Source: Scatophagus argus
Taxonomy: Eukaryota; Chordata; Actinopteri; Scatophagidae
Reading direction: 5' to 3'
Assembly: GCF_020382885.2 (NCBI RefSeq)
Contig: NC_058502.1
Coordinates: 11,125,950 to 11,189,949 of the forward strand
DNA length: 64,000 nucleotides
Shown: piece by piece, positions 37,901 through 47,626 of the stretch
Layout: each line of letters opens with the position of its first letter
Numbering within the stretch: the stretch's first letter is position 1
Notes under the pieces: generated by a model
Database searches by the model: none
What the model was told of the DNA's origin: nothing
Seen by the model: only the letters and a program-made list of their open reading frames with translations
Made by a program: the position numbers and the translations under genes

Positions 37901-38630
37901 CAGTCTCTGTTATTGTAACACTCCATTGATGTTGGTTATTTCACGTACATGTAACATACATACAGGCAGTCCTGTCAGCATTGGTGCACAGTGTTTTCTC
38001 CCCCTATTTTGTATTGTGTCGAAATATATTTCCTTGATGTGAAATGTATTTTACTCAGCAATAGAGCAATAGAATTAAATATGTAACAGTAACAACCAAA
38101 CCTGCCACTTTAATGTGATGCCACAAATCTAATATCGAGCTGCTCTGGAAGAAAGTCCAGAAAATGAACTTGAAGTAAGTATTACAGTAACGCAGTACTG
38201 ATCTGTTAAGGCTTTTTAGTTCGACAGCCAGGAAAACACGAGACAATTAGATAAAGCCAGTATTCCACTGGCAAACACAATCTGAATTGTTATATGGTCA
38301 GTTTTCACCACAGACATAAAAAGGAACCACAGCTTTAAAATACAAATCTGCCTTATACATGTACAGTAAGTCTAATAGTTGGTTTAGATTAAATAATTCA
38401 CATTTACACTTAAAATATGTTTGGACCCATCCCTGGCTTTCATCAGAAAATGAGACTAGAAAAAATGTAATGTAATGTAAAAAATGTCTTTTGTTTGAAG
38501 GTTTTTTAAGCAGAGGTATCTTAATGCTGTAACCCATCCAAATCTTTTAGAGTGCAGTTTTTTTACATTGTTGCCCCAACATACAGATGAAATGAAAAAA
38601 CAACAACAAAAACCCCCCCACAGGATCACA
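34912..38630. other. sfxn3 3' UTR and spacer to prxl2a
   Basis: No coding exon is visible. A likely sfxn3 poly(A) signal ATTAAA is at 36165-36170; 3' sequence could extend further, since AT-rich sequence continues to about 38000. A GT run is at 36763-36784. The two flanking genes are tail-to-tail here. Confidence 0.45.
36165..36170 (+). terminator. Candidate poly(A) signal of sfxn3
   Basis: ATTAAA about 1.25 kb after the sfxn3 stop, followed by a TG-rich stretch. No AATAAA was found nearer the gene. Confidence 0.35.
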
Positions 38631-38652
38631 GTGACGATAGGGGGATGAGGTC

Positions 38653-38658
38653 TTTATT
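38653..38658 (-). terminator. Poly(A) signal of the first selenoprotein U gene
   Basis: AATAAA on the minus strand, about 140 nt beyond the 3' edge of the SECIS element. It places the SECIS inside an 800-nt 3' UTR. Confidence 0.6.
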
Positions 38659-38700
38659 ATTTTCTGCAGCAGGTATCCACGTGTACAGGTATACACAATC

Positions 38701-38739
38701 TCTCTCTCTCACTCACTCACACACACACACACACACACA
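38701..38739. repeat. CT/CACT/CA microsatellite
   Basis: (TC)n, then CACTCACTCAC, then (CA)n inside the 3' UTR of the first selenoprotein gene, between its SECIS and its poly(A) signal. Confidence 0.9.
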
Positions 38740-38796
38740 GTCTCCACCTGCTTCAGGCACCACAAACGCTCCTCAACATGGTGACTGTAGCTGAGC

Positions 38797-38870
38797 CTGT
38801 ATGTGTTTGAACATCAAACCTGTTCCTCTCAAAGTTGAGTTTAGAGTCAGGTTGTCATTATCACACACAG
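38797..38870 (-). promoter_or_regulatory. prxl2a: SECIS element of prxl2a (selenoprotein U1)
   Basis: Read on the minus strand, the core is ATGA (38855-38858), twelve bases, AAA, then TGAT (38813-38816). The stem after ATGA pairs AACCTG with CAGGTT. The basal stem pairs CTGTGTGT with ACACATACAG, with one G-U pair. CTCA/TGAG in the apical loop can form the extra mini-helix of a type II SECIS. It lies 570 nt downstream of the stop of a gene with an in-frame TGA, so it should direct selenocysteine insertion through SBP2 and EFSec. Confidence 0.85.
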
Positions 38871-39427
38871 AGAGAACACACACACATATCTGCCATGTTG
38901 AAGGCACATTTAGGCGCCTGACCAGGAAAGCAAATGGAGACAACGCATATGAACGATATTGAAAATGTACCACTGAAAGACAGAGTTAACAGAATAATCA
39001 AATGTTGTAAAACCAGCAGAAGCCTTTCTTCTCGAAAGGTAAGATTTCAAGTCATCTCAAATTTTATGAACCTGAATGAAAAATGCTGCCTTGAAGTCCC
39101 TTTCTATCTGTTTTTAATACCCGTCTCAAATAAAATAAAATAAAAAAAAAAAAACAGCTTCTGGGTGTCTGCAGGGGTCAGAGGAAAAATCATCAACAAG
39201 TCCTGTAATAATATTGCGTGCATTCTGCATTTCACAGCACGACTTTTGTACCCAGCAGTAAATTAATGTGCAAAAGACAGACAATATTGTGATATTAGAC
39301 AACGCAAGCAGACTTAAATGTAATTATCAGACTTTGACTACAACGTGTCAAGTTAAAAATTATTTCTTAATTCTAGTTTTGATCTAAATACATTTTAACT
39401 CGTGCTATGAGCAAAAAAGCAAAACAA

Positions 39428-41343
39428 TTATTTCACTGGCACAATTTTCTTAACAGCCTCTAAAACATCTGCAGTGTCCACCTTATCGCCGAACTCCTTC
39501 TCACGATGCTCCAGGAGAATCCCCTGCAAACACATCATCACATCAGTTAGTTACAATGCAGACATGTTCGTAGAAGCTTTCATAAAGTCCACACGTCTGC
39601 CTATGATGCTACCTGGTCTGCTGCTCCGATGACAAACACTCCACCCAGGATGAAGCCCTCGCCATTCATGTTGCCCTGGTAACCGGACCTCCAGGCCCGC
39701 ATGAAGTTCTGCCACACTCCGAGGCGAATGAACCCCAGACCCGCCATCTTCCTCTGCAGCGGGCCGTAGAAGTGTTTCTACAAGAACATAATTTAGTGTT
39801 AGTTAGCCTAATCTAGAGAAGTTTAGGAATTCGCTGAATGTCCTTGAGTTTTTCAAAAAATGATTTTCACATAATGAGTTATTTTACTGTCCTTTAAAAA
39901 CTGCTTTTATTACCTCATTTGCCAAATATCACTTTCCTTCTTTGCAAATGATATGTGACTCATTTACATTTTCTAGCAATAAGTAATGGTTAATAGCCTA
40001 TTTTCGATAACAGGACAAATAAAAAAAAAACATTTTAATAATCAATGAATTCTTAAATAGTTTAGGCTTTCTGTTTGTCTGAATGTTCACAGAAGACTAA
40101 GCCAAAGGAAAGAAACAAAGGTTTCAAACTTATGGGTTCCAGACATGATTAATGACTGTTGGTCAAACAAAACAGGCCATTTTAATATGCCAATGTTGGC
40201 TTTGGGAAATTCAAGGGGTCAAGGGGAATTTTTCATTATTTTATGACATTTTACAGACCTGATGAATAATGTCATTATTTGTGCTGCTGCTGAGATACAG
40301 AAAAAGGGGAGGGTGGGGTCAGACAGTTTTAATCATGACGTATTTAAGCCTAACTGACTGACTTATGGTTGAGATCTGGGGGATGTATCTTCCACTGCTA
40401 ACCTCTTCATCCACGTAAATGTCCCCAGCGAAGTGCGGTCTGAAGTCCTGGATCTCTGTGCCGACTATCTCCTTCACCACAGCGACCAGAGGGACCCCGA
40501 GCTCTTCCAGCTGGGGCTTCAGAGAGGACAGCTCAGAGGCCTCCTACACAAAGAAAGCTTATACCATCAGAGAAAAATATCACCCATACACACTGCTTAA
40601 ATTTCAACATGTGCAACAACCACTCCATCACCTCTCTGCACAAAAATCATCCAGGCCGTCGTACGGCCATGACCACAGCCCCGTTCTTCTCCCACAGGCT
40701 CTTGGCTTTGATGACCTTGTCATCTGCAGGCAAAAACAAGAACAAACTTTTATAAACAAGGCTCCAAATCAGAAGGATTTTCATGGGTTCTAATGCTGCA
40801 AGAATTCAATAAACCCACAGTGTGGAAAATTAAAGATGCAGCCTTCAAATGGAGAAAAAGCAAAACATTCACGGTCACATGGAACATCACTATGTTGAAT
40901 GTGCTTAAGAATAACACAGTATCTTGACCTTCAGCTTCAGGCAAAGACCTTCACGGTGATATAATCTGTAATACCAGCAGATTTGAGAAAGCGGCTTTGC
41001 TTTATATGCCTCACAAAACCTCATTCTTTTTATGCACAATGCATACACACATGCAACAGTAAAGAAAACTGCAAATAGCTAAATGTGCTGACGTAATGTT
41101 AATTCTCCACCTTATGGGTTTAACCACAGCTGGTGTTAAGACAAATGGGCTTATTGGTGGGTGACGTCATTAAACAGCCAATAGGAAAGTCTACCTACCC
41201 TCTATGGTGGAGCGCAGGTCAGTATCTGCAAGGTACTCCAGCGATGCTTTGGCAGCTTTAGGGAGACACAGATCGGTGTTGGCCAGGAAAATCCCAGCTA
41301 GTGCAGCCCCGACAGCACCAAGACCCAGCGACCACATCCCCAT
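39428..41343 (-). CDS. prxl2a: Peroxiredoxin-like 2A / selenoprotein U1, copy 1 (TGA = Sec)
   Basis: Coding exons in transcript order: 41199-41343, 40632-40723, 40403-40543, 39613-39777, 39428-39523. They give 212 residues with selenocysteine at 74, encoded by TGA at 40647-40649. The start ATG (MGMWSLGLGAVG) matches mammalian PRXL2A; residues 4-21 are a hydrophobic anchor or signal-like segment. Around the active site the protein reads VVMAVRRPG-U-FLCRE, where mammals have Cys, giving a UxxC pair (U74, C77) on a thioredoxin fold. Further family marks are GEGFILGGVFVIG and GILLEHREKEFGDKV. The exon starts at 41378, so 35 nt of UTR precede the ATG; an upstream in-frame stop lies in the 5' exon. 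PRXL2A proteins are redox regulators reported to act in bone and macrophages. A SECIS and an AATAAA lie downstream on the same strand. A second copy lies 4 kb upstream. Ignoring Sec would cut the protein to 73 aa. Confidence 0.93.
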
Positions 41344-42060
41344 ACCGAACAGTTCCCCCTCCAGCCCAGAGAACAACACTGCAGCACAAAAAGGCAACAA
41401 CGGGAGGAGTTACAAGTCTGACACTTACAGAATGAAAGAGACATTGTTTTCTTTGACAACATAGTTTTTGGAGTTTTCTTTCACACGTCCACTGTAGCTG
41501 GGATGCAGATTATGTGATACCTGCACATTTATTTATACAAGGAGACCTCAAATTTCCTTGAGACATCAACAAGACAGAGCTTGCAGATGTCTTGAATTCA
41601 CAGCACCTCTCTTCAGCCCTAAATCTCATCCATAAGATTAAATAGCTCACATACTTACTAAAGAGATGAGATGCTAGTCAGCATGACGAGACAACCACAG
41701 TTTGTAGATGCTATCTTTGACTGCAGCTGTGCAAGTCACTTTGGGACCTTGGTTTGAATAGCTAATTGTGCTTTCAGTTATATTTGAATATTTGTTCTTT
41801 AGGAACTTTAGGTAATGGATGCTATCAAATATTTTCATCATCAGTGAATTTGACATTTCTGTATTTTTTTGACTAATTGTTTAGTTAGTCTAAAGCCTAA
41901 GCCTCAGCAGTGGACGAAACTCCAATCCATAGCTAATTAATTTACTTATTTTAAATGACTACACACAATAAAAAACTCTTTAAAAACACTCTACTGTAAC
42001 ACTGTTTCTGCAACAAGGTTTGGGTTAAGCTGGAAAGTAGATAACTGTGGAGGCAGTCAC

Positions 42061-42268
42061 ATTTGTCCTTGCCTGAGGCGGGCTTGTTTGGGTCAGGACT
42101 GGCTTTTGCTTTACTTTGGTGAAACAGAGCAGTCTGGGTTCTTAGAAAGTGGGGCCTGGTTGCCGTGGAGGGCTGGCTGCTCATGGTCGTGCTCCCCAGA
42201 GAGAGGACAGAGCAGCGCAGGGACAGTCTCCAACACAAAGCTGTCCGACTCCTGGACAGAGCCAACAT
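42061..42268 (-). other. Possible alternative first coding exon of prxl2a
   Basis: On the minus strand an ATG at 42268 opens 69 codons rich in Arg, Ser and Ala and nearly free of acidic residues (start MLALSRSRTALCWRLSLRCS). The segment is distinctly richer in GC than its surroundings. A GT at 42059-42060 would leave phase 1, which joins in frame to the exon beginning at 41378 and continues LLFSGLEGELFG into the normal start. The N-terminus resembles a mitochondrial presequence. The donor (GTGACT) is weak, and all three minus-strand frames are partly open, so this is a suggestion only. Confidence 0.25.
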
Positions 42269-43194
42269 CGGGACGGTGGAAAAAGTCTGACCCTCTCACT
42301 ACAAACACCCTCAAGATTTCACTGAAAGAAAGAAACACAAGTCTTGCCATGCCACATACCTTTTCAAAGACAATAAAATCCACCTCTACTGTAAGCTCTA
42401 CCTTCAATAAGCCTGCCCAGATAACCAGTTAGCCAGGTTTTATGTATGCTTACAGTAGTAATTAACTGTTCATCTCGCTGAGTTTGTGACATCAAAGTCA
42501 AAACAGGCTAGAAACTCAAAGAATAAAATGTGTGGCTCTTATCTTAATCATCTCACTGGTAGGTGACGGTTCCCCATTTGCAAACAAACTTGCTATTCTT
42601 GCACCTTTAGCTCTAGTGTGCGGTAAACACATCAAAACATAAATGACACCGAAAACACAAACATATTAGTTTACAGCATGCAACAGAGGGGAAGTGATGC
42701 ACTGTGAGTTAAAGATGACCAGTCTTACAGAAATCACACAAGAAAAAAAAAAAGACTTTAAGTTTAAAGAAGATCAAATGCATCTTAATGTTTATAACCA
42801 ACTGAAAAGCACGAATGGTTTATACTGACTTGTCTCCATTTCCAAAATGCGAAGTAATACTTTTGCTCCTGGTATTTAGCTCATCCGGTTTCAAACTGCT
42901 CGACACCTGAATGCATTTGTGTTCCGACACCCCGTACAACTGGGGATGACAAAGTGCTGAGAAAAATGATAACTGCGGCAGCCAAGAGAGAGAGACGCCC
43001 ACGCCTCAATGCAAGGAAGAGTCTAGATTCTTTTTGAATGCGTCTGCAGAACGAGCAGTGAAAGGAGGTGCCAACATGGATCCTGCCAAACATGTAGTGT
43101 TCACAAGTACTCTATGAACCCACGTAATAAATCAAGAGTTTTATTAAATCAATGACATGTGGCAGGTGATAAGATGAATGATCACTTATTAGCC

Positions 43195-43935
43195 AGAGAC
43201 AGAAAGTCACTAAGTACTTCCTGTTGTACAGTTTTGAAGTACTTTTGTAATTTTATTATTTGATGATACTTTTTAATTCACTGCATTTATTTGACAGCTG
43301 ACAACTTAATGTAAAACATGCAATCAAAACATGTTATAGATTAAACTACTGAACAGTATATTAAAGAGTAAAATTAGCTCCACCCTCATTATCACCAAAC
43401 AGGCAATAATCAAACGCTGTTTACGTGTTAATACATTTAGAAAGCAGAGTTTTAATGTATAATGGAGTATTTTCACATATGGTATTGCTACTTTTATTTG
43501 AGTACAACTGAATTACTTGTTTCACAGCTGACAGTTAAGTACAAGTTTGGGGTACATGTACGTGACTTGAACATTTCCATTTGTTGCTACTTCAGCCTTT
43601 TAATCCACTCTATTTCAGGGTGGAATTAATGTATATTTACTCCACTACATTAATAGTTTACAGTTACTTTGAATATTAAGATTTTTCATACAAAACTAAC
43701 GATCAGTTTCTAAAACACTATGATTTGTCCTAGATATAACTACCGTGACCAGCTACATTAAAATGTTAATCATGGAAAGTAATTATGTACATTTACTGTA
43801 CTAAGAACAGTACTGAAGTACAATTTTGAGGCGCTTGTACATTACTGTACTACAGTGTTATACTTTTTACTTCACTATATTTATTTGATAACATATAGTA
43901 TTAGTTACTTTCCAGATTCAAAATAATGAAAAATA
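43195..43935. repeat. Cluster of diverged copies of a dispersed fish repeat
   Basis: Phrases such as GAAGTACTTTTGTAATTTTA, TACTTTTTAATTCACTGCAT, TATTTGACAGCTGACA, TTTACTCCACTACATTAATA and TACTTTTTACTTCACTATAT recur three times here. They belong to an AT-rich element abundant in teleost introns. Another copy is at 53485-53790. Copies are too diverged to set borders or orientation reliably. Confidence 0.55.
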
Positions 43936-43984
43936 TGATCAACAAATCAATCAACATATACACACGTGCATATACAGTATATAT

Positions 43985-44022
43985 ATGTGTGTGTGTGTGT
44001 GCATATATATACACACACACAT
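43985..44022. repeat. TG/CA inverted repeat
   Basis: A (TG)n arm is followed by CATATATAT and then a (CA)n arm, making a near-perfect palindrome of alternating purines and pyrimidines. It can form a long hairpin or Z-DNA and lies within prxl2a intron 1. Confidence 0.85.
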
Positions 44023-44804
44023 AAAGAAAGTGATGCACACATTAACGCACCGATAACTTCTTCCACCATTGATTATAATAACCAGGTAAAATCATATGTA
44101 CATGATTATATAACAATCGGGGAACATTTTAGACCATTTAGCTGCTAATACTTCTTCCTTTTTTACTCAAGTTAACGTCAGTAATGATCCAGTTCTTATT
44201 TCACTTCATGTTTATGAACACGGGAGCAAAGCTGCCTTTTATTAACAAGGTTAATACTGTCCACCATGCCCAAGTTGATTTGTACCTGCCATTAATGTTT
44301 CATTCATTTTAATTATATCGTCTCCTGTTTCACAGAGTAGTTTTGAAGGCAGGGTTCTTACTTGTCACTTGGCATGTTCACCCTATGACACTGGCTTTGT
44401 TTCGGACCTGAATACTTCTTCCATGACAAACACTTAGCTAACATAGATGATGACCTTGTAACTGTCAGTGTACACGTTAATCAGTGACATTGCCTCACGG
44501 CTACAAGCGGCTACACTGGGAACTGTAAGCGAGCAGAACTAAAAATGTTTACACATTTTTTAAGTTACTCGGAGTAACGATTACATAATGAGCGCATACT
44601 TTCAGTGTCCAATAAAATTGCCGCTAGTCGCAGCGGACTACGCCGTTGTAGCAAACTGTCGATAAATTAGCTTGTAGTTCGGCTAACGGTTTTCCCGTTG
44701 GTCTGGAGCTAGCAGGGCTTGTTGGAGGGGTAGATGCACCTGTTTAGAAGCCGTAACTGCGATTAAAAGCTAATTGAGTAGTGTCGTAATGAAGGTACAC
44801 TCAC

Positions 44805-44900
44805 CAGACTCAATTCAACAATAAGCGGTGCCTCCCGGCTCAAGTGGTTTGTCAACAGATCGGCGCAGGCGTACTAAACAATCCGGAGAGCAGGACAACT
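44805..44900 (-). other. 5' UTR exon and promoter side of prxl2a (inferred)
   Basis: On the minus strand GAGTCTG is followed by the strong donor GTGAGTGTACC (donor GT at 44803-44804). The same CTG|GTGAGT context occurs upstream of the second copy at 47011. Sequence just upstream (44820-44935) has CpGs such as CGATCGCCGGCGCG, consistent with a TATA-less promoter. The upper exon border is an estimate. Confidence 0.5.
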
Positions 44901-45047
44901 AATCGAACACACGATCGCCGGCGCGAAAGATTTGTCAAAAATGTTTGTCAGGCGGGCCCAACACAAAACTTAACAGGTTAAAAATATATAAAAATAAAAA
45001 TATAAAAAACAAACGGATTCCTCCTGTAAGCATGACTGGTTTAATGG

Positions 45048-45053
45048 TTTATT
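45048..45053 (-). terminator. Poly(A) signal of the second selenoprotein U gene
   Basis: AATAAA on the minus strand, about 75 nt beyond the SECIS. It lies 375 nt after the stop. Confidence 0.6.
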
Positions 45054-45126
45054 AGATGGCAATGTTCTCACTCCAACGATTTTATCTCCCTCATGTCAAG
45101 CCAAGACTGTCTTGTTAAGTGTTAGA

Positions 45127-45193
45127 TTTGTGTGCTCGCATCGGAGTTGTTCCCTCATCACAGTTTAGAAACAACTCTTCATTAAAACACAAA
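45127..45193 (-). promoter_or_regulatory. selenou1: SECIS element of the second selenoprotein U1 copy
   Basis: Minus-strand core: ATGA (45179-45182), twelve bases, AAAC, then CGAT (45140-45143). Eight perfect pairs (GAGTTGTT with AACAACTC) form the stem above the core, and seven pairs (TTTGTGT with ACACAAA) the basal stem. The spacing from ATGA to AAA is the same as in the first copy, although the stem sequences share little. It lies about 250 nt after the stop, on the same strand as a gene with an in-frame TGA. Confidence 0.87.
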
Positions 45194-45428
45194 AGACATC
45201 ATTACATAACCAAGGTCAGAAATGCAGACAGTGGGTAAAAACAAAATCGGTTAAAGTGGCTCATTGTGACCACATATTTGTGACATATCAGCAGCAGGTG
45301 AATGTATTAGATGTACAAATAGAACAAATGTGTTATGGTGCAGAGAAAACTCCTGGGTTTGGCTTAAAAAAAAATACAGACATGCAAATGGGAAACGTGC
45401 CGCAGTCCATTCATTCACATTTTGTTGT

Positions 45429-46569
45429 CTATCCTGCCATGTCATCCTTCATTTTGCGGGCCGTTCTTAGCACTGCCAGCATATTCACTTTATCCCCAAA
45501 CTCCTTCTCACGGTGCTCCAGTAGAATACCCTGTGTGGGGGGAAATGACCCTTTAAAATATTCATAAACACTTGTCAGTTTTTGTTTTGTTTTTTTATTC
45601 TTTGAGACCACGCCTACCTGATCTCCAGGCCCAATGACAAAGACACCACCCAAGACAAGTCCTTCGCCTCTTAAGTTTCCCCTGAAGCCCCTCCGGTAGG
45701 CCCGCAAAAGGTTCCTCCACACACCAATGCGCAGAAACATGGAGAGAAACATCCACCTCTCTTGAGGGCCGTAGAAATTTCTCTGTGAGGATAATATCAA
45801 AGCAGCTTATTATCTTGAAATTGGTAACTCTGCAGTATTCATTTAATATCTCAAAGCCATGTATAATGGAGCAGACCTTCTGATCCACGTAGACCCTCCC
45901 AGAGAAGAACTTCTTGAAGCAGTCCAGCTCCTTGCCAAGGTTTTCTTTCACCACAGCAAACAGAGGGACCTCAAGGTCCTGCAGCTGAGACTTTAGAGAG
46001 GACAGCTCAGCAGCCTCCTATTGAGGGAATGAAATGGCATGAGTGAATGTTACTAGTCAGGTGACTGCAGAGTTTTCTTTACTGATGCTCATACAAGCAT
46101 GTCATTTCATACCTCTCTGCACAATAATCATCCAGGTCGCCGTACAACCATGACCACAGCTCCAGTCTTCTCCCACAGAGTTTTGGCTTTGTGTCTCTCA
46201 TGGACTGAATGATACAGAGGAATATTACTGAATCTAAATGGTTGCTGTTTTGGACAGGTAAGAATTTGTGAATTGATCTGCGTGCTGTCACAAAACATTT
46301 TGTCCGCTCTTCTGTTCACTTTCTCTCAGGTGTTTATCTGCTTTGTTTGCAAAGACAAAGAGACTTTGCAGTGCAACAGTTCAGCATGTCTGCAAGCTTG
46401 TTAGTTAAAAAGATTCTGACTCACCACCTCCAGTTGTCTTCAGTTCTGTGTCCTCCAGCACTTCTATGTTTGCCCATACTGGTTTTGTTTGGAACCAGTC
46501 TGTGACAGAGCTGATGAGCTCTGCAACAAACAGGCTCACCGCCTTCAGGACCGTAGTCACAGTCACCAT
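45429..46569 (-). CDS. selenou1: Selenoprotein U1 / PRXL2A-like, tandem copy 2 (TGA = Sec)
   Basis: Coding exons in transcript order: 46425-46569, 46113-46204, 45877-46017, 45618-45782, 45429-45530. They give 214 residues with selenocysteine at 74 (TGA at 46128-46130). The first four exons have the same lengths (145, 92, 141, 165 nt) and phases as copy 1. The active site reads VVMVVRRPG-U-LLCRE. Other shared marks are EAAELSSLKSQLQDLEVPL, GEGLVLGGVFVIG and GILLEHREKEFGDKVN. The N-terminus (MVTVTTVLKAVSLFVAEL) does not resemble copy 1 or mammalian PRXL2A and is only mildly hydrophobic, so location may differ. The start is the first ATG after an in-frame TGA in the same exon. The donor at 46424 (GTGAGT) is favoured over an equivalent GT three bases earlier. 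With its own SECIS, poly(A) signal and promoter exon, it looks functional. Lineage naming (1a, 1b or 1c) cannot be settled here. Confidence 0.92.
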
Positions 46570-47011
46570 GACTGTAAACTCGCTCCACGCCGCAGGTCAC
46601 CTACAGAGGAAACGTGCACAAAGAACTTCCATACTTCTGCTTCAGGAACTTTCAACGAGATTAAGATGAGTTCAGCTCATCAGTCAGCTCACTTTAGCAC
46701 TTTACCAAATCTTTGTCATTTTTGCATGAGGCTCAGGGTCACTCATGCATGTTGTTTTCTTTATCTGATCGTTGTACTCCAGTCAACATATCTCTCTTCT
46801 TAAGAACCCCAAACACAAAGATTTTCTAGAAATGTGCTTATCAGAAAAGCTTGACTGCACTGTTCCATGTGACTGTTTGACACCCATCGAATTAGACCTA
46901 CTATATTAAGAAAGACACCAATATATGTAGCTTTGTAATAACATTTAACATTTAACTTAACATTTGATGCTGTCAGTGTGTCAACAAAAAATATAAAAAG
47001 GTGATACTCAC

Positions 47012-47100
47012 CAGACCGTGCCTTGCTGTGAACGAGGAGGACTATAATGTTTTCAACCAGCCCCTTAAGCCCTCTAAGATCAGATCAGTCCAGTCACAGT
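47012..47100 (-). other. 5' UTR exon of the second selenoprotein U gene (inferred)
   Basis: Minus-strand CACGGTCTG followed by the donor GTGAGTATCACC at 47010-47011 parallels the first copy's 5' exon. The next acceptor downstream is at 46601-46602 (CCTCTGTAG), giving 31 nt of UTR before the ATG. The upper border is unknown. A 63-codon plus-strand frame (47047-47238) overlaps it but has no other support. Confidence 0.45.
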
Positions 47101-47626
47101 GAAAGCCTTGGTTATGTGAGCGTAACACGACAGGAATTCCTGGTTTTAAACAAGGCTCACATTGAGCTGAATCCTCAGTACCAGGTTCAGCATGGTGCCG
47201 AGTGGAGCACTCATCAAAGGGCAACACTACCTCACTAATGTAACAACATTTCTAAACATTCATGTCATCAGATATGTTGCCTTAATTATATTCAAGCTGT
47301 TAACGTCCATGAATGTAATAAATAGCATCTATAGTTCAGTGTTGCAGAATGATACTAATTCACACAATCCTTAATTCTACTGACCTTTGTGATTAAGGTG
47401 ATGATCATCACCTGAATGTTTTTATTCGCTGAAATGTACGTGTGTCAGTGGAGAGCATGAAAATCTGTTTGGAACATTTGGCTTCTCATTGTTTCTTTAT
47501 GTCAGGGCTGCAGAAGCCTTGAGTTCAAACTTCAGATGTCGTGACTCAGATCAATGCTGCCCCCTGCAGGAGGTTAGTGACATTACAGAGCTGACACATC
47601 GCCAGTCAGAGGCTGACTTCAGGGCT

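Follow-up and report, generated by a model that had tools for sequence, protein, structure and literature searches.

Several genes for selenoprotein U1 (SelU1) are known from bony fishes, and their multiplicity in percomorph fishes is already published: in the accessible part of a study of 2012 (PMC3316567), three Sec-containing genes, SelU1a, SelU1b and SelU1c, are described from this group. SelU1c is reported there from all the bony fishes investigated and is traced, with probability, to genome duplication, while SelU1b is described as confined to Percomorpha, where its duplication is dated, with medaka lacking the gene and stickleback carrying a Cys form. A tandem placement of SelU1b does not appear in the available text of PMC3316567. 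The presence of Sec in fish SelU1 is also stated in PMC3473315, and the accessible parts of PMC3473315 and PMC2375036 do not discuss duplicates of the fish gene. No other papers on fish SelU1 copies, or on tandem selenoprotein U genes in teleosts, were found in the open-access literature searched, which takes in few subscription journals.

Here we describe two SelU1 genes standing side by side in Scatophagus argus, in a stretch of 64,000 nucleotides (contig C10, positions 11125950-11189949; hereafter the window), together with a third copy on another contig. The two neighbours are called gene A and gene B and the third is called copy C. We consider it very likely that gene B, probably SelU1b, is a working SelU1 paralogue in tandem with A, which arose by an old duplication, is kept by purifying selection, and has its UGA read as Sec by means of a SECIS element.

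Results

Gene structure, reading frame, SECIS match, synteny and divergence were all read from the sequence. Gene B is an intact SelU1 gene with five coding exons on the minus strand of the window (46569-45429), and the only internal stop in its 214 codons is the TGA at codon 74. Coding exon 1 (46425-46569, 145 nt) begins with an ATG that has an in-frame stop upstream, exon 2 (46113-46204, 92 nt) carries the Sec TGA, and exons 3 (45877-46017, 141 nt), 4 (45618-45782, 165 nt) and 5, with the stop codon (45429-45530, 102 nt), complete the frame. The Sec exon is entered in phase 1, has AG/GT borders, and encodes ...KAKTLWEKTGAVVMVVRRPG-U-LLCRE. All four introns between the coding exons are of the GT-AG type. 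A candidate 5' noncoding exon of gene B (47012-47130, minus strand) was recognized by eye from its splice motif, with the donor at 47011/47010 and a guessed outer border; judging from such motifs, 5' noncoding exons are plausible.

Gene A (41343-39428) lies on the same strand, and its frame of 212 codons is free of stops except for the TGA at codon 74. The coding exons occupy positions 41199-41343 (145 nt), 40632-40723 (92 nt, with the Sec TGA and the phase found in gene B), 40403-40543 (141 nt), 39613-39777 (165 nt), and 39428-39523 (96 nt, including the stop), and the introns between them are GT-AG in four of four cases. Lengths and phases of coding exons 1-4 are identical in the two genes, while the last exon measures 96 nt in A and 102 nt in B. 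The structure of 145/92/141/165 recurs in copy C as 151/92/141/165. When gene A was used as a tblastn query against the window, three linked stretches were obtained in gene B, covering exons 2-5 (E 2e-42). The initial annotation had described gene B as a second, complete selenoprotein U gene in tandem, with a Sec exon of the same length, phase and TGA position and with its own SECIS element and poly(A) signal, and this description is borne out by both loci. The spacing of 4 kb given there is correct for the distance between the genes (41343 to 45429), and 5.4 kb separate the Sec exons themselves.

The SECIS element of gene A is located at 38801-38866 on the minus strand, 561 nt past the stop codon, and scores 37.2 bits against Rfam SECIS_1, above the gathering score of 35 bits. 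That of gene B (45128-45192, minus strand, 236 nt past the stop) scores 34.7 bits, which is 0.3 bits under the gathering score (E 0.0037 for the whole window). The same site is matched by SECIS_5 with 30 bits, far under the gathering score of 50 of that model. Beyond the A and B sites, the matches listed for the 64-kb window include no SECIS_1 hit with an E value up to 5. The element of copy C passes the cut-off with 38.2 bits, and a core of AATGA / TAAACT / GATG is common to all three in the alignment. As expected of a eukaryotic selenoprotein gene, the 3' UTR of gene B carries a SECIS element on its coding strand, with an intact core and a score 0.3 bits short. In both genes an AATAAA signal lies beyond the SECIS element, at 38653-38658 in gene A (searched stretch 38300-39430) and at 45048-45053 in gene B (searched stretch 44800-45430), both on the minus strand. 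The fold z-scores are -2.40 for gene A, -1.40 for gene B (19 of 200 shuffles as good) and -0.65 for copy C (54 of 200); folding by itself is weak support for these elements. With the SECIS elements included, the 3' UTRs of A and C and those of B and C show significant similarity (0 of 200 shuffles as good in each case), and those of A and B do not (50 of 200).

All three proteins match the Pfam family AhpC-TSA_2 (PF13911), with 78.9 (A), 70.0 (B) and 70.9 bits (C) at a cut-off of 27. In gene B the TGA at codon 74 is followed by LLC, forming a UxxC site (U74, C77), and in A and C the corresponding residues are FLC. A U/C-x-x-C redox motif is the defining mark of SelU1, also called C10orf58 or PRXL2A. 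An assignment of gene B to the SelL-related redox proteins (NCBIfam NF040769) was rejected, with 46.5 bits against a curated cut-off of 120.

The genome searched comprises 570.7 Mb in 48 contigs. At E values up to 10, the gene A query gave 14 matches and the gene B query 15, and the loci hit were only those of A and B, a single one on C21, and that of a distantly related Cys homologue on contig C3. The locus on C21, copy C, is a third Sec-containing SelU1 gene, of 220 aa, with the TGA at codon 76 and a SECIS element of its own. The 30 kb around it yielded no second SelU1, only a single weak, overlapping match to A and B (E 0.40 and 0.21). A search with PF13911 returned 9 matches in the genome, among them one additional locus on C4 with 30.5 bits and another on C15 with 22.3 bits, the latter under the cut-off; for these two the A and B queries give nothing better than E 0.09 in tblastn. 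Neither the viral contigs (21 pattern stretches, gene A query) nor the genome contigs (99 stretches, query A1) yielded a confirmed outside relative.

Some further features were noted in the course of these searches. The Cys-containing homologue at C3:10514732-10514902 (plus strand) bears RRFGCQVCRWMA and resembles prostamide/prostaglandin F synthase (PRXL2B). At C4:21132234-21132297 (minus strand) there is a further SECIS_1 match of 38.2 bits, over the gathering score, probably belonging to another selenoprotein gene; the 8 kb around it give no tblastn match to A or B better than E 1.6. A simple repeat rich in TG/CA/TA at 43950-44136 of the window shows weak Rfam matches (mir-297, mir-466, mir-1277, mir-3149 and Alfamo_CPB), far under their gathering scores and probably spurious.

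For synteny, 1663 open stretches of the window (at least 25 aa) were compared with the 30 kb around copy C. An lzts2-like gene (Fez1 family), a pdzd7-like gene (PDZ), and SelU1 are collinear and co-oriented between the C10 window and C21, and a control with reversed targets gave 0 matches. Given this collinearity, C10 and C21 are very probably partners of the teleost genome duplication and copy C the ohnolog of the A/B locus. Among 10 stretches scanned against Pfam, 7 have a family (Fez1 twice, PDZ twice, SFXNs, S-AdoMet_synt_C and Ion_trans) and 3 have none; lzts2, pdzd7, sfxn3 and mat1a are the presumed names of the window neighbours, in part adopted from the initial annotation. The link to sfxn3 and mat1a put forward there holds at the level of Pfam families, with a sideroflexin gene at ~29.9-33.1 kb and matches to a methionine adenosyltransferase gene at ~60.4-61.3 kb of the window, both on the plus strand. 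Neither of these two genes has a match in the 30 kb around copy C. C21 does have members of both families (14.99 and 17.92 Mb), 1.4-1.6 Mb away, but they add little to the argument, since the families are also present on other contigs (C12 and C15; C4 and C20). The methionine adenosyltransferase locus at C21:17917200-17917316 (minus strand) shows one C-terminal stretch only, versus three in the C10 window, and is possibly a partial or diverged mat1a ohnolog.

Neither A nor B is closer to its tandem neighbour than to copy C, and the two form the least similar protein pair: the identity is 53.3% for A-B (113/212), 57.1% for A-C (121/212), and 58.2% for B-C (124/213). The dS and dN values (Nei-Gojobori) are 1.42 and 0.37 for A-B, 1.01 and 0.33 for A-C, and 1.50 and 0.35 for B-C. 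The three copies were rooted with two prostaglandin-F-synthase-like sequences (one from contig C3 of the same genome, the other from PDB 9us9). The best rooting joins A with C and leaves B outside (AU p 0.66, bootstrap 54), followed by B+C (0.43) and A+B (0.26), and all three stay within the confidence set of the AU test. The branch of gene B is the longest (0.34 vs 0.25 and 0.20). Residues shared by two copies number 25 for AC, 26 for BC, and 17, the fewest, for AB. By exon the signal is mixed: exons 1 and 4 favour BC, exons 2 and 3 favour AC, and the heterogeneity has a permutation p of 0.022. Copy C is closer to A by the best-scoring rooting, and closer to B if overall identity or exons 1 and 4 are considered. 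This heterogeneity could stem from differences in rate or from gene conversion of old date; we claim neither.

Discussion

The low similarity of A and B means that the tandem event may match the genome duplication in age, or that gene B has evolved faster. With dS values close to saturation and none of the three rootings rejected, the age is uncertain; the divergence nevertheless suggests an old event, not a species-recent one, which would date from the percomorph base or before and perhaps from the time of the teleost genome duplication. The tandem duplication might even predate the genome duplication, with copy C as the ohnolog of one of the C10 copies and the C21 partner of the other lost, a reading that we hold tentatively. 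If it were true, the published percomorph-only origin of SelU1b would reflect losses elsewhere and no late duplication. With the same degree of caution, gene B may be viewed as a tandem duplicate of A that postdates the teleost genome duplication, arose in basal Percomorpha and then evolved fast. This second timing overlaps with the preferred explanation, from which it differs on timing alone, and agrees with the restriction of SelU1b to Percomorpha given in the accessible part of PMC3316567, with the A+B rooting still being allowed, and with the long branch of gene B. It is opposed by the A-B pair having the lowest identity and the fewest shared residues, and by its dS exceeding that of A-C, though B-C is higher still. 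The initial annotation had spoken of a lineage-level duplication; the extra gene looks real, and if a recent event was meant, an A-B divergence at least as great as that of A-C speaks against it.

The pairwise dN/dS ratios (~0.26 for A-B, 0.33 for A-C and 0.23 for B-C) speak for purifying selection on the SelU1 copies, and of the 235 differences that separate A from B, 108 fall on third codon positions, compared with 78 for a one-third share. These values also bear on the possibility that gene B is in decay, a pseudogene whose Sec position still holds a TGA and whose SECIS is a relic. The sub-threshold SECIS score of gene B and its ordinary fold do count against a functional gene, though copy C, with an element above the cut-off, folds more weakly yet; the lack of significant similarity between the 3' UTRs of A and B counts on the same side. 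The available text of PMC3316567 also reports that medaka has no SelU1b and that the stickleback gene has Cys in place of Sec. Against this stand the full frame, every splice site, the poly(A) signal, and the A-B ratio, and we regard decay as very improbable; as the initial annotation had it, gene B is no visible pseudogene.

Equally improbable is a recent duplication of A, special to the family or genus of this fish. The two genes are indeed adjacent, on the same strand, and equal in the lengths of coding exons 1-4, but their proteins are only 53% identical, dS is ~1.4, and the introns of A and B are not alignable in any of the four comparisons. Among the 12 corresponding intron pairs of A, B and C, 11 are equalled by at least ~1 in 6 shuffles; intron 1 of B and C stands out (1 of 200 shuffles as good), without significance after correction. 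An origin of gene B as an allele or through an assembly error, the concern raised in the initial annotation, is excluded in practice by the A-B divergence. At E values up to 0.01 the two loci have just three nucleotide matches, 48-250 bases in length and 69-88% identical, which fall on exons, one spanning the short intron 2; there is no N in the window.

As a functional paralogue, gene B would encode a redox protein with a thioredoxin fold, a member of AhpC-TSA_2 with U-x-x-C (U74, C77) as its active site; because of this family membership and motif, the product is described here as a putative Sec-containing thiol redox protein. Under the direction of the 3' UTR SECIS element, the ribosome would insert selenocysteine at the UGA of exon 2, and both tandem copies would be retained under purifying selection. 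The Sec incorporation, the enzyme activity, the age, and the names SelU1b and SelU1c are what we infer; on present data gene B is probably SelU1b and copy C SelU1c. The value of the locus lies in a clean case, from a single chromosome-scale genome, of three SelU1 paralogues that keep Sec, including a tandem pair; this may be of use in dating SelU1b and in the annotation of UGA genes that pipelines may truncate. Knowledge of the selenoprotein mechanism is left unchanged by the tandem pair.

Among the known systems, prostamide/prostaglandin F synthase ('SelU3' in the accessible part of PMC3473315; PDB 9us9 and 9usa) belongs to the same superfamily and matches residues 51-204 of A with E 1e-18, but contains Cys, not Sec, and is distant (a branch of ~2 substitutions per site); the relative on C3 is of that type. 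The invertebrate selenoprotein clusters described in the available text of PMC3473315, including a sponge SelU3 cluster, resemble the present locus in having tandem copies, but they concern another subfamily and another animal group, and in the sponge cluster one copy is incomplete and lacks a SECIS element, whereas A and B are both complete. There is also the likeness to SelU1a, SelU1b and SelU1c of bony fishes, as given in the accessible part of PMC3316567: the triplet found here fits the three Sec-SelU1 copies, but SelU1b is dated there to Percomorpha and gene B is about as divergent from A as copy C is. In comparison with these systems, the new points are limited to the placement in tandem, the synteny, and an indication that the duplication may be older.
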